NCBI GenBank assembly: GCA_035570235.1
Contig: DATMML010000111.1
Coordinates: 1 to 61,152, forward strand
Source: Vicinamibacteria bacterium
GTDB lineage: Bacteria; Acidobacteriota; Vicinamibacteria; Fen-336
Direction: 5' to 3'
Length of the DNA: 61,152 nt
A program made the position numbers and the translations under genes. Below, piece after piece: positions 3 to 37,626 of the stretch. Each line of letters opens with the position of its first letter. Within the stretch, counting starts at the first letter, position 1. Below the pieces are notes generated by a model. The model had not been told where the DNA came from and searched no databases. It was given only the letters and a program-made list of their open reading frames with translations.

Positions 3-1058
3 GTCTTCTACATCAACATCCCCGTGGGAGTGGCCTCTCTGGTCATGGCCCAGCTCTTCATCTTCGACCCCCCCTACATCGGGCGGCGCGCGACGCGGAT
101 CGACTACCAGGGCATGGGGCTTCTGGCCGTGGGCATCGGAGCGCTTCAGATCCTGCTCGACAAGGGCCAGGAGGAGGACTGGTTCGCCTCCAGCGCGATG
201 ACGGTTTTGGTGGTGGTCGCGGTGGGGGCTCTGATCGCGTTTCTCGTCCACGAGCTCCGAGCGCAACAGCCCGTGGTCAACCTACGCGTCTTCCGCGTGT
301 CCACCTACAGCGCGGGGGTCTTTCTCATGACCGTGCTGGGGTTCGTCCTCTACGGCAGCCTGGTCCTGCTGCCGATCTTCCTGCAGACACTGCTCGGCTA
401 TCCGTCGCTGCAGGCGGGTCTCGCCATGGCGCCGCGCGGGATGGGCGCGTTCCTAGCCATGCCCGCGGTGGGTATGCTCCTGGGGCGGGTGCCCGCGCGC
501 CGCATGCTGGCGGCGGGGCTCGTCACCGGCTCCCTCACTCTCTTCTGGCTCGGCTCCCTGAATCTCAGCGCGGGCTACTGGGACATTTTCTGGCCGCAGT
601 TCCTGCAGGGGATCTCTCTGGGGATGCTCTTCGTCCCCCTGACCACCATCACCATGGATCCCATCCCTAAGGAGTCCATGGGCAACGCCACCAGCATGTT
701 CAACCTGATGCGCAACATCGGAGGGAGCATGGGCATCGCCGCCGCTACCACCCTGCTCTTCCGGCGGCAGCAGGCCCACTTGAGCGTTCTGGGGGCGCAC
801 GTCGACCCCTTCAGCCCCCAGGCCCGGGCCCTGCTCGAGCAGCTGCGGGCCGGTTTCCTGGCCCGGGGATCCGATTTCGCCACCGCCACCGACCAGGCCC
901 GGGTCGCCGCCTTCGGGTTCGTTCAGCGGCAGGCGGCCATGCTGTCCTTCACCGACGTCTTCCGCCTGCTCGCGCTGCTCTTCTTGGCCCTCCTGCCCTT
1001 TCTGCTCGTGATGAAGAGCCCCCGCGCGGGCCGCAGCGCGGCCCCCGCCGGGCACTAG
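3..1058 (+). CDS. DHA2-family MFS drug efflux transporter (5' end cut off by the window)
   Basis: The reading frame is open from the first bases and enters with the FYINIPVG signature that ends a transmembrane helix in EmrB/QacA-type 14-span transporters, so roughly the first 160 residues lie outside the window. About 351 residues remain. They form alternating hydrophobic spans, a Gly/Arg-rich cytoplasmic loop (LGRVPARRM) and a basic C-terminal tail. Members export hydrophobic drugs by proton antiport across the inner membrane, usually with an HlyD-like adaptor that would lie upstream. The gene converges on uvrA with an 18-bp gap and no obvious terminator. The family call is firm; the substrate cannot be told. 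Confidence 0.88.
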   Translation, partial: VFYINIPVGVASLVMAQLFIFDPPYIGRRATRIDYQGMGLLAVGIGALQILLDKGQEEDWFASSAMTVLVVVAVGALIAFLVHELRAQQPVVNLRVFRVSTYSAGVFLMTVLGFVLYGSLVLLPIFLQTLLGYPSLQAGLAMAPRGMGAFLAMPAVGMLLGRVPARRMLAAGLVTGSLTLFWLGSLNLSAGYWDIFWPQFLQGISLGMLFVPLTTITMDPIPKESMGNATSMFNLMRNIGGSMGIAAATTLLFRRQQAHLSVLGAHVDPFSPQARALLEQLRAGFLARGSDFATATDQARVAAFGFVQRQAAMLSFTDVFRLLALLFLALLPFLLVMKSPRAGRSAAPAGH

Positions 1059-1076
1059 AAGGGCGGGACCGACGCT

Positions 1077-3926
<2,850 letters not shown>

Positions 3927-4090
3927 CGCGTGTCCCTCGCGGCTCCCGAGCGGGCCGAACCCTTGATGTTAGCCGGGAACGGGGAGCCGGTCGAGCCCCT
4001 GGGGAGCGTCTGGAGAGAATAGCGGCCGGGAGGCGGGTGCCTCCCACTCCTTAGAGGGGGGCGTGGCCGCGGAGCAGCCGAGCGCGGTGC

Positions 4091-4096
4091 TATCAT
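4091..4096 (+). promoter_or_regulatory. -10-like element (TATCAT) of rlmN
   Basis: TATCAT stands 8 bp before the rlmN ATG at 4105. A start site about 7 bp downstream would leave a leader of only 1-2 nt, and no Shine-Dalgarno sequence lies between. No convincing -35 is seen. This is one of several such cases in the window. Confidence 0.4.
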
Positions 4097-4104
4097 GCCC
4101 GCCA

Positions 4105-5163
4105 ATGGCGACGAACCTTTTTGGGCGGGAGCGGGACGCGATTCTGCGCGAGATCACGGCTCTCGGCGAACCGGCCTACCGCGCCCGTCAGGTCTACGTC
4201 TGGATCTACAAGAAGCGCGTCCGGTCTTTCGAGGCCATGACCAACCTGGGCAAGACCCTGCGCGAGGAGCTGGCCCGTCGCTTTGTGCTGCGCTGGCCGG
4301 AGGTCGCGGAACGGAACCTGTCTTACGACGGCACCGTCAAGTACCTGCTGCGCCTCGAGGACGGCGCCGCCATCGAGAGCGTCTACATCCCGGAAGACCG
4401 CCGCCGCACCATCTGCATCTCTACCCAGGCGGGCTGCCCACTGCGCTGCGCCTTTTGCCTGACCGGGATCGCCGGTTACCGGCGGAATCTGAAGCCGGCG
4501 GAGATCCTGGGCCAGGTCGCCCTCCTCATGGAGGAGGCGCCCGCCCGCCGGCAGCCTTGGAACGTGGTGATGATGGGCATGGGCGAGCCGCTCCTCAACT
4601 ACGAGGCCACGGTCTCCGCCCTCCGGGTCCTGATGGACCCCGAGGGCTTCGGGGTGGCTCCCAAGAAGCTGACCCTCTCCACGGTGGGTATCCTGCCCGC
4701 GCTGGAGAAGCTGATGCGGGAGCCTGTGCGTCCGAACCTGGCCATCAGCCTTCACGCCCCCGACTCCGCCCTCCGCCGCGCTCTCATGCCCGTGGAGGAG
4801 AAGTACGGGATCGAAGAGGTGATCGCGGCCGCCCAGCGTTATCCGATTCCGCGGGGCGGGCTCGTGACCTACGAGTACGTGCTGCTCCGCGGAGTGAACG
4901 ACACCCCCGGACACGCCCGTGAGTTGGTTCGGCTCCTGAGCGGCGCGCGGGCCAAGGTGAATCTCATCCCCCTGAACCCCGCCCCCCAGATCCCTTTCGA
5001 AGCGCCGCGCGCGGAGGCGGTCGACGCCTTCTGCGCGGCGCTCGCGGAGGCCCGCCTGACGGTTTCCGTCCGCCGTCCGCGCGGCCAGGACATCCTGGCT
5101 GCGTGCGGCCAGCTCCACCTGAAGCAAGGCGTTCCCGCTCCGGTTCCGGCGCCGCCCTCCTGA
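4105..5163 (+). CDS. rlmN: RlmN, dual-specificity 23S rRNA A2503 / tRNA A37 C2-methyltransferase
   Basis: A radical-SAM methyltransferase that installs 2-methyladenosine in 23S rRNA and some tRNAs. The SAM cluster motif CPLRCAFC is at about residues 111-118, followed by the GMGEPLLNY loop and STVG motif. The second catalytic Cys lies near the C-terminus (AACGQL, about residue 334), as in E. coli. I chose the ATG at 4105 (352 aa) over a GTG at 4063 because the protein then starts just before the conserved FGRERDAIL stretch and because a TATCAT box ends 8 bp upstream. It stands alone, divergent from uvrA. Confidence 0.96.
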   Translation: MATNLFGRERDAILREITALGEPAYRARQVYVWIYKKRVRSFEAMTNLGKTLREELARRFVLRWPEVAERNLSYDGTVKYLLRLEDGAAIESVYIPEDRRRTICISTQAGCPLRCAFCLTGIAGYRRNLKPAEILGQVALLMEEAPARRQPWNVVMMGMGEPLLNYEATVSALRVLMDPEGFGVAPKKLTLSTVGILPALEKLMREPVRPNLAISLHAPDSALRRALMPVEEKYGIEEVIAAAQRYPIPRGGLVTYEYVLLRGVNDTPGHARELVRLLSGARAKVNLIPLNPAPQIPFEAPRAEAVDAFCAALAEARLTVSVRRPRGQDILAACGQLHLKQGVPAPVPAPPS

Positions 5164-33378: not shown

Positions 33379-34176
33379 CTATCTCAACATGATCTGCAAA
33401 GCGTTTTCAACTGGACCACCTGCCCCTTGGCGGGCCAGAAGGCCCGCCAGGTCCTTCTCCGCCCCCGTTCGGACCTGGCCCCGGAGAACGAGCTTGCCCT
33501 TCTCTTCCGCCACCTTCAGACCATAGGGGGCCAGGTTGGGGTTGGCCCGGATCGCGCTCTCGGCACCCGCCCGGCCCCTCGGCGTGGCCTCCCCGCGGAC
33601 CCTGATGTTGTCCGTCACCCCGGCCACGCCCGGCACGGCCCGGGCGGCCTCCAGGGCGACGTCGCGTTGGGCCAATCCGGCCACCTCCCCGCTGAGGGTG
33701 ACCTGGCGCCGGAAGACGCTCACGTTGATATCGGTTCCCCCCAGCTCCCGCCGGAGGGAGAGCGCGAATCGGACCTCCACCTCGAGTGACCGGTCGTCCA
33801 GGCTCTCGCCGATGGTGCGCGCCTCGGGACCGGAGGCGGCGGCGGGTCCCGCGGCCACCTGGAGGTGGTTTACAACCTGAACCACATCCGGAACCGCTCC
33901 CACGACCCGGGCCGCCAGCTCGCCCAGGTCCTGAGCCGGAACCTGCCCCCGAAGCGTGACCACCCCGCTCTCCGTGGCGACGTCGATGGAGTAGGGCTTG
34001 AGGTTGCGGTTTAGGGCCAGGGCGGCCCGGACCGAAGCAGTGACCTTGGCGTCTTGGAGCCGATGGCCCAGCACGCCCAGGCGGCCCTTGTCACCGGAGG
34101 GCAGACCCCAATAGTAGTGAAGGGCGGCCCCCACGAGGGCCAAGAGCACGATCAGTGCGAAAAGGCGCTTGAGCAA
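33379..34176 (-). CDS. Membrane-anchored triple BON-domain protein
   Basis: Three BON repeats behind one N-terminal membrane anchor (RLFALIVLLALVGAALHYYW). Each repeat shows the helix-strand-strand pattern ending in a GxV glycine: VATESGVVTLRGQVPAQD, VSVFRRQVTLSGEVAGLAQ, and the last one VAEEKGKLVLRGQVRTGAE. BON domains bind phospholipid or peptidoglycan at the periplasmic side (OsmY, BamE-neighbour and secretin proteins). I chose TTG 34176 (265 aa), which has GGAGG 5 bp upstream; ATG 34206 would overlap the sthA ATG. It diverges from sthA, and their -10 boxes share one palindrome. Confidence 0.8.
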   Translation of the reverse strand: MLKRLFALIVLLALVGAALHYYWGLPSGDKGRLGVLGHRLQDAKVTASVRAALALNRNLKPYSIDVATESGVVTLRGQVPAQDLGELAARVVGAVPDVVQVVNHLQVAAGPAAASGPEARTIGESLDDRSLEVEVRFALSLRRELGGTDINVSVFRRQVTLSGEVAGLAQRDVALEAARAVPGVAGVTDNIRVRGEATPRGRAGAESAIRANPNLAPYGLKVAEEKGKLVLRGQVRTGAEKDLAGLLARQGAGGPVENALQIMLR

Positions 34177-34199
34177 AGCCCCCTCCGGGGTAGATTCTA
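34169..34199. promoter_or_regulatory. Overlapping divergent promoters of sthA and the BON gene
   Basis: On the plus strand TTGAGC (34169-34174), 16 bp, TAGATT (34191-34196) precede the sthA ATG by 8 bp. The same palindromic TAGATTCTAG reads TAGAAT on the minus strand (34199-34194), 17 bp before the BON TTG. The two polymerase sites overlap, so use of one should exclude the other. Confidence 0.5.
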
Positions 34200-34204
34200 G
34201 CGCC

Positions 34205-35629: not shown

Positions 35630-35763
35630 GCTGTCCCACCGCCGGCCGCCGAGAAATGGCGACCGGACGCCGTTTTTCGGACGGCCGGCACTCAGCCTCC
35701 GGGCACCCCCAGCTCGAGCCTTGGGGGACAACACTTTACGGGTGATCCCTCCGGCGCTGCTCC

Positions 35764-35777
35764 GGCACGGGTCTTGC
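35764..35777 (+). promoter_or_regulatory. Sigma-54 (-24/-12) promoter candidate
   Basis: GGCACG-N4-TTGC with 10 bp between the GG and GC dinucleotides, matching the RpoN consensus except for the base before GG (C for T) and the base after GC (G for A/T). It lies in a 205-bp gap after sthA, about 58 bp before a small ORF and 300 bp before a secreted Thr/Pro-repeat protein. No enhancer site was identified. Confidence 0.45.
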
Positions 35778-35834
35778 GACTCTCGGGGGCAGGGCGGCGA
35801 CCACGGTGGTCGTCTCGACACGGAGGAAGTTCAC

Positions 35835-36059
35835 ATGGCACGCAAGCGAGTCTACCTTTCGATCGGCCAAGGAGCTGCCGTGGCTTGCCGGCCCGAGGGA
35901 ACCCAAGAGGCGTGGGAAGCACTGCCCGGTCGGTCGGACCGCTCGGCGTCGAGTCCGCTCTCCTTGCTCCCCCGCTTCCGGATCGACGACGTGATTGCCG
36001 ACCTCGGAGGCGGCCGCTACTGGCTGTTGCCCCGTGAGGCATCCAAGCCCCGGCCTTAA
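35835..36059 (+). CDS. Hypothetical small protein, 74 aa
   Basis: Unrecognised. ATG 35835 follows CGGAGGAAG with 8-bp spacing, and the frame ends 16 bp before the next gene. The basic N-terminus MARKRVYLSIGQGAAVACRPEG leads into an uncharged middle and a C-terminal RIDDVIADLGGGRYWLLPREA. No signal peptide or membrane span. The strong ribosome site and a sigma-54-like promoter upstream support it, but without homologues it stays tentative. It may be co-transcribed with the secreted repeat protein downstream. Confidence 0.45.
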   Translation: MARKRVYLSIGQGAAVACRPEGTQEAWEALPGRSDRSASSPLSLLPRFRIDDVIADLGGGRYWLLPREASKPRP

Positions 36060-36075
36060 GCTCAGACCCCCTGGC

Positions 36076-37626
36076 ATGAGGCCCGCCGGTCTCATAATCC
36101 TGCTCCTTCTGGGCCTCGCGTCGTCGGCGGCGGGCCAGGGTCTCGTCATCGATCACGACGGACTCGGCTGCGTGGTGGCCGGGAAGTACCCGAAGCTTTC
36201 CGCCTGCATCGCACCGCGCTCGCGCGTGGCGCGAGCCCGTGTCTACTTCCGCGGCGAGGGCACCCCGAACTGGTACTACGTCACCCTCACCTCGGACATG
36301 CCCTGTTATCGCGGCCTCCTTCCCAAGCCCAAGCGCGATCTCCGGCGATTCAGCTACTACATCGCGGCCGTGGACATGGCCTTTGCGGAAACGCAAACGG
36401 GCGAATACGTGGCGGAGGTGGTGCCGGACGAGGCCAGCTGCCGCAAAGGCCCGCTCGCCCCCTTTTTGCAAGATGCGTCGGTGGTGGCAACTCCAGCCGC
36501 GGGCGGGGCCGCGATCCCGCCCGGCTTCTCGGCGGTCGGTGCCGTGGGCGGCCTCCCAACCGGGGTCCTACTCGGGGTCGTGGGCGGGGGGGCGGCGGTC
36601 GTGGGGGGCATCTCGGCGATCGGGGGCGGGAGCGGGGGAGGGGGGGCGCCGACCTCTCAACCCCCGCCGACCACGTCCACGGCCGGGTCGCCGCCGAGCA
36701 GCCTGGCCGGGCCCTCGACCACGACTCCGGGAACCTCGACGTCCACCATCCCCGGCGCACCCACGACCACGGTGCCCGGGACTCCCACCACGACCCTGCC
36801 GGGTCCCACCACCACGACCCTGCCGGGCCCGACCACCACGACCCTGCCGGGCCCGACCACCACGACGTTGCCCGGTACGACGACCACGACGGTGCCGGGC
36901 ACCACCACCACCACACTGCCCAGCACGACCACCACCACCCTCAACCCCTGTGCGGGCGACACGACGCCGCCTCAGGTCACGATCACGTCCCCCACGGGCG
37001 GCCTCTTTCTGCCCCTCCCCGTCACTGTGAGCGCCAGCGCCTCCGACGCGTTCGGCATCGCCAAGGTCGACTTCTACTACCAGGAGTCGGGCCACTCCGC
37101 CGTCTTCTTCGGGAGGAGCACCTCCGCGCCGTACCGCGCCACCCTGTTCTCCCTCTGCCAGGCGGCCCTCTTGGACTCCTTCTCCCTCACCGCCGTGGCG
37201 ACCGACAACTGCGGCCTCGTGGCCACTTCCTCCCCGGTGACCATAACCCTCCTCGGCCTCCCCCTGTGCTTCTCCTCGACCCCGCCGCCCCCAGGGGCGG
37301 GCTGGATCAGCGACCTGGCCGTCCCGGGCGGACACGGTCAGGTGGTACTGAACGGGACGGACGCCTTCTTCCCCAGCGCGGGCCCTTCGAGGATCACGGC
37401 CCCCGGGCGCCCGGGTTCCAACCGCGTGGAGGCGGTGCTCGTGAACGCCCCCGGGCGGGGGGGGACGTGGCGCTTCGACTTGAGCGGCCTGGGGCTCAAG
37501 GCGGGCAGCCTGCGGGTAGTGGCGGGCGAGGTGGTGCTCGCGACCCCGGACACGGTGGTGTTCCGCCTGAGTGGCCGCCCCGGAGAGCGAGTCGTCTTCT
37601 CCTTCCGGACGGAAGACGACCGCTAG
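36076..37626 (+). CDS. Secreted protein with Thr/Pro-repeat stalk and Ig-like domain
   Basis: A 516-aa exported protein. Signal peptide MRPAGLIILLLLGLASSAAG, a 100-residue N-terminal domain with several Cys (YVTLTSDMPCYRG, YIAAVDMAFAETQTGEYVAEV), a Gly/Ala-rich hydrophobic stretch (about 165-195) that could cross the membrane, eight octapeptide repeats of the PGxTTTTL kind (about 227-290), an Ig-like/Big_7 domain (DTTPPQVTITSPTGG) and a C-terminal beta domain. The layout is that of a surface-exposed binding protein on a flexible, possibly glycosylated stalk. ATG 36076 is chosen since it opens the signal peptide. Function unknown. Confidence 0.7.
   Translation: MRPAGLIILLLLGLASSAAGQGLVIDHDGLGCVVAGKYPKLSACIAPRSRVARARVYFRGEGTPNWYYVTLTSDMPCYRGLLPKPKRDLRRFSYYIAAVDMAFAETQTGEYVAEVVPDEASCRKGPLAPFLQDASVVATPAAGGAAIPPGFSAVGAVGGLPTGVLLGVVGGGAAVVGGISAIGGGSGGGGAPTSQPPPTTSTAGSPPSSLAGPSTTTPGTSTSTIPGAPTTTVPGTPTTTLPGPTTTTLPGPTTTTLPGPTTTTLPGTTTTTVPGTTTTTLPSTTTTTLNPCAGDTTPPQVTITSPTGGLFLPLPVTVSASASDAFGIAKVDFYYQESGHSAVFFGRSTSAPYRATLFSLCQAALLDSFSLTAVATDNCGLVATSSPVTITLLGLPLCFSSTPPPPGAGWISDLAVPGGHGQVVLNGTDAFFPSAGPSRITAPGRPGSNRVEAVLVNAPGRGGTWRFDLSGLGLKAGSLRVVAGEVVLATPDTVVFRLSGRPGERVVFSFRTEDDR
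36754..36945 (+). repeat. Eight 24-bp tandem repeats coding for a Thr/Pro/Gly octapeptide
   Basis: In-frame units of G-(P/T/A)-(P/T)-T-T-T-(L/V)-P, three of them nearly identical in DNA. The near identity suggests recent expansion and possible length variation by slippage without frame change. Confidence 0.9.

Follow-up and report, generated by a model that had tools for sequence, protein, structure and literature searches.

The window analyzed here is an entire contig of 61,152 nucleotides (nt) from a Vicinamibacteria bacterium (DATMML010000111.1; C111 of the 138 contigs in the 5.72 Mb host genome). It contains a -24/-12 element, the motif of sigma-54 (RpoN) promoters, followed by a 74-amino-acid (aa) open reading frame (ORF) and a gene for a secreted protein with a Thr/Pro-rich stalk. 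Judging from the genome-wide distribution of its core, the element is very probably a sigma-54 promoter. The explanation of the locus that we consider best, and likely overall, is a sigma-54 transcript with a translated leader, a coupled restart, and a secreted stalk protein at the envelope as its product. An activator encoded off this contig would open the sigma-54 RNA polymerase, and the transcript would begin near 35789. The 74-aa leader would be translated by ribosomes entering at GGAGG; those finishing at the UAA codon (36057–36059) would open a hairpin hiding the AUG at 36076 and restart there, yielding a secreted protein in or at the envelope whose Thr/Pro stalk presents Ig-like domains. 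Such control is of a sensible but ordinary kind, and the protein family is still without a name. The features upstream of and at the start of the stalk gene are as follows.

35706–35727, strand not assigned: inverted repeat CCCCCA-N10-TGGGGG, from a script search of the gap; a weak candidate activator site
35763–35778, +: predicted sigma-54 (-24/-12) promoter CGGCACGGGTCTTGCG, with a predicted transcription start at ~35789
35822–35826, +: ribosome site GGAGG, 8 bases before the ATG at 35835
35835–36059, +: 74-aa ORF, probable translated leader, without detectable relatives
36052–36083, +: predicted RNA hairpin in which the leader stop region pairs with the stalk gene AUG (-17.2 kcal/mol, z -3.45)

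The -24/-12 element and its counterparts in the host genome

The initial annotation had described an almost exact -24/-12 element in an otherwise empty gap, and both parts of this description were borne out. The core, GGCACGGGTCTTGC (GGCACG-N4-TTGC), is exact at 35764–35777 (+), with GG and GC 10 bases apart within GGCAC...TTGC (GG-N10-GC); the 16-mer CGGCACGGGTCTTGCG carries two mismatches to TGGCACGN4TTGCW, both in flanking bases that are off consensus. The gap at 35630–35834 is free of called genes, placing the motif in an intergenic position oriented toward a gene, and no sigma-70-like site was found within it. The exact core occurs nowhere else in the window; dinucleotide shuffling produced a match in 8 of 100 trials.

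Across the host genome, the core was compared with a control pattern consisting of the reversed motif in the same genome. Genes around the 30 core and 16 control sites were called with our own simple caller, using a codon model trained on 26 ORFs of the window, and a divergent pair on contig C43 that was read from two loci (32 rows for 30 sites) was counted once. The exact core is present 30 times against 16 reversed controls, and the full consensus, TGGCACGN4TTGCW, 9 times against 2. Core sites are intergenic in 25 of 30 cases, with 2 partly in a gene and 3 inside one, whereas only 2 of the 16 control sites are intergenic and the other 14 lie inside genes (Fisher p 4e-6, or 6e-6 when the window site is omitted). 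A called gene on the same strand begins within 300 nt downstream of 20 of the 30 core sites; at the window site, where the 74-aa ORF was not among the called genes, the distance is 298 nt, up to the stalk gene. None of the 16 control sites is both intergenic and that near a downstream gene. Nine relatives from the same family contain 197 core matches in total against 80 controls, with one relative, G004, opposite in direction (6 against 20); the comparison of these sites with the stalk family covers the matches listed. This whole-genome comparison supports well the earlier claim of a sigma-54 promoter. Because the core is intergenic in 25 of 30 instances, the sigma-54 targets of this host can be listed with few false calls, and a motif recognized by eye marks a genuine regulon in what seems to be an uncultured lineage.

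The proteins needed to use such promoters, named in the initial annotation as a check, are encoded in the genome: rpoN is present in a single copy (E 3.5e-64, genome search), and there are 29 matches to the activator domain PF00158, 24 of them strong (E <1e-50). In Francke et al. 2011 (PMC3162934), sigma-54 promoters are described as controlling the cell exterior; the window locus shares with that picture a -24/-12 core, rpoN with activators, and an exterior target, while the terms "Acidobacteri" and "Solibacter" are absent from the main text of that paper. Within the partial coverage of the open literature, searches on sigma-54 or rpoN in Vicinamibacteria, Acidobacteria, and Acidobacteriota returned no such regulon, and reports joining the stressosome with rpoN or sigma-54 were found for Listeria and Bacillus.

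The presumed targets give some indication of what the regulon serves. A 16-mer identical to that of the window lies 237 nt upstream of a row of genes encoding STAS, STAS, HATPase, and SpoIIE-phosphatase proteins, which we take to be the make-up of a stressosome operon. Candidate targets in one cluster on C43, assigned by Pfam or by eye, comprise YtxH, BON, ice-binding-like, and KaiC proteins and an activator with a receiver domain. From these sequences, the host sigma-54 regulon looks like a set of stress and envelope genes, with the stressosome-like operon at L078 perhaps among them. At L078, the STAS/STAS/HATPase/SpoIIE-phosphatase row occupies 938–3304 (-) and a divergent response regulator 3842–4474 (+), each with a sigma-54-like site upstream. 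At L076/L077 (G000 C43:79000-117000), about 10 sigma-54-like sites with at most one mismatch fall within 33 kb, surrounding the YtxH, ice-binding-like, BON, KaiC-like, and activator candidates in a dense regulon cluster.

Upstream words of 6, 7, or 8 letters were in no case shared more broadly than in shuffles. The word TTGTAGA/TCTACAA, chosen after looking at the data and then tested alone, occurs 79–154 bases upstream of 6 of the 25 intergenic core sites against a shuffled mean of 0.15, and is likely the binding site of one activator. These sites belong to L037, L039, L044, L061, L062, and L113, of which L061 and L062 are a divergent pair with their upstream stretch in common.

The stalk protein and its family

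The gene downstream of the element encodes the secreted stalk protein anticipated by the initial annotation, and searches of related genomes place it in a family of this lineage. Its parts are as follows.

36076–37626, +: secreted stalk protein, 516 aa (family and domain searches, hydropathy)
36139–36441, +: N domain, residues 22–122, predicted all-beta and Ig-like, without a Pfam name (model, fold search)
36523–36645, +: Gly/Ala-rich hydrophobic segment, residues 150–190, a possible membrane segment (hydropathy 2.09 over 19 residues)
36688–36945, +: Thr/Pro stalk, residues 205–290, with a 24-bp repeat unit (74% T+P+S)
36970–37143, +: Big_7 Ig-like domain, residues 299–356 (PF17957, E 8.4e-10)
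37297–37611, +: conserved C-terminal beta domain, residues 408–512 (family comparison, model)

The N terminus resembles a signal peptide by eye and by hydropathy, and the glycines of the Gly/Ala-rich segment are conserved in the family. The Big_7 match scores 39.6 bits, above the curated cut-off of 24.1. In a structure model, confidence is high over the N domain (block means mostly 84–95), fair to high over the C domain, and low elsewhere (mean 64.6). Its search against the PDB gave many generic Ig-like matches, all with a whole-model TM <0.2, and these were used for fold class alone. A sequence search of the PDB reached a best E of 0.35, Rfam gave no match, and no NCBIfam model matched the stalk protein. 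We rejected PEP-CTERM and LPXTG anchoring: the C terminus is a beta domain ending in FRTEDDR, with no preceding hydrophobic segment among the top hydropathy windows listed above 1.3 (by eye). The protein would be retained in or at the envelope and may be displayed at the surface. Its adhesin-relevant features are limited to the Ig-like folds and the stalk.

The family search matched 23 of 60 genomes, including the host and all 13 relatives of the same family. The host itself gave 12 matches, interpreted as eight copies of the N domain spread over six contigs; at L027 (G000 C37:205500-209900), three copies stand in tandem, a possible site of copy diversification. Members share a layout of signal peptide, Ig-like N domain, Gly-rich hydrophobic segment, Thr/Pro stalk, variable middle, and conserved C domain. 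The middles, compared by eye, differ from member to member, with Thr/Pro and Big_7 in the window copy and other repeats elsewhere. In comparison with Big_7 surface proteins, the window protein is secreted and stalked with one significant Big_7, whereas its ends are conserved family domains without a Pfam name and its relatives carry other middles. At E 0.1, 25 of 26 N domains had no Pfam match, the remaining one having a weak, stray hit to a ribosomal protein, and a secreted family with such an N domain deserves a model of its own.

We scanned 33 stretches upstream of family copies for sigma-54 sites; two were the window itself, leaving 31 others. One of the 31, a copy in G012, has a near-perfect site, CGGCACGTCTCTTGCA, 170 nt upstream; the chance of one such site in about 30 stretches is roughly 6%, as estimated from the site count. 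A similar site at L035 has a broken -12 GC and was left out of the count, and the remaining stretches hold weak matches at best. In a tree of 30 N domains, the window copy has no resolved place beside L009, L035, L033, L011, L029, and L017, so its topology does not decide whether the two good promoters were inherited jointly. SthA-like and BlaI-like neighbors recur in relatives, without an adjoining stalk gene in the stretches compared; none of the genomes compared is of the same genus, and synteny is not kept. From these upstream sequences, a sigma-54 promoter does not look like a trait of the family. We found no evidence for the stage- or attachment-specific system that had been suggested for this locus. 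The sigma-54 targets seen in the host resemble genes for stress and the envelope, and such a promoter is missing from most of the stalk protein's relatives.

The 74-aa ORF, its junction with the stalk gene, and alternative readings

The corrected start of the stalk gene, the ATG at 36076, lies 16 bases past the stop of the 74-aa ORF, and no ribosome site precedes it. The predicted hairpin across this junction is more stable than all 200 shuffles. Translationally coupled leader ORFs have a ribosome site before the leader, none before the downstream gene, and a hairpin over the junction, and the window is alike in all three respects; it differs in that its leader is unconserved and its coupling is read from sequence. 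With no ribosome site before the stalk gene and a hairpin over both stop and start, coupling from leader to stalk gene is a fair inference, although equal stability is reached by 14% of 41-nt windows taken at random from the contig.

The 74-aa ORF had been described as a small orphan with a strong ribosome site; the properly spaced GGAGG and the orphan status hold, but the ORF shows little coding bias, which makes a leader no less likely than a working protein. No match was found in Pfam or NCBIfam, in the 395 other phylum genomes searched (E 5e-4), or in a scan of genome contigs. Four weak matches among 59 nearer genomes proved on reading to be out-of-frame or unrelated stretches; one, at L005, falls at the C-terminal end of what by eye is a methyltransferase-like protein and lacks significance across the 59 genomes. 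The codon score of +2.0 is the highest of the six frames in that stretch, but spurious ORFs of comparable length score as high in 7 of 46 cases (15%). The absence of relatives and the low codon score lend some weight to the idea that the promoter is real but the ORF is no gene, the stretch being untranslated and forming the 5' leader of the stalk gene, as does a single-sequence model so poor as to be meaningless (pLDDT 42). We regard this idea as unlikely in view of the GGAGG, the best-scoring frame, and the stalk gene that would be left without any ribosome site. Still less probable is that the ORF encodes a small protein with a function of its own in the same regulon, such as regulating or partnering the stalk protein: it has its own ribosome site, and short ORFs also follow other sigma-54 sites in the host, but it is unconserved, has no confident predicted fold, and has no counterpart adjoining the stalk genes of relatives. 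A translated leader coupled to the stalk gene is a plausible role for the ORF, and that of a working protein doubtful. It is very improbable that the motif is a chance match and that the stalk gene uses another promoter, since the 16 reversed matches that set the chance level lie mostly inside genes (14, against 5 of 30 core sites touching a called gene), and the element, despite its flanks, is correctly oriented with a ribosome site downstream.

Several further observations weigh, with the 14% of equally stable windows and the single good site among 31 family copies, against a sigma-54 transcript with a coupled leader. Two-mismatch 16-mers number 7 in the window against 6.6 expected; the flanks are therefore poor and the signal rests on the core, and with counts at chance level the window alone is insufficient to decide on a promoter. 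Its flanks also differ from the T...T usual in the lineage, TTGTAGA is absent upstream of it, and none of the PF00158 matches falls on its contig. A sigma-70-like match at 36071–36098 overlaps the stalk gene start, too far downstream for its transcript to contain the start codon. The stalk start region does not stand out as inaccessible, with 33% of random positions equally closed, and the four neighboring genes scored reach codon scores of 70 to 283 against the +2.0 of the ORF.

A broader picture, which we offer tentatively and think rather doubtful as a whole, is that Vicinamibacteria possess an undescribed secreted display family with constant ends (an Ig-like N domain with a membrane-like segment, and a C-terminal beta domain) and exchangeable middles. 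One host copy would have been brought under sigma-54 control in a regulon for stress and the envelope, which drives a stressosome-like operon as well, and a young leader ORF with translational coupling would gate the output of this copy.

Just upstream of the locus, 33379–34203 (-) encodes a protein with three BON domains, a type also represented among the candidate sigma-54 targets on C43.
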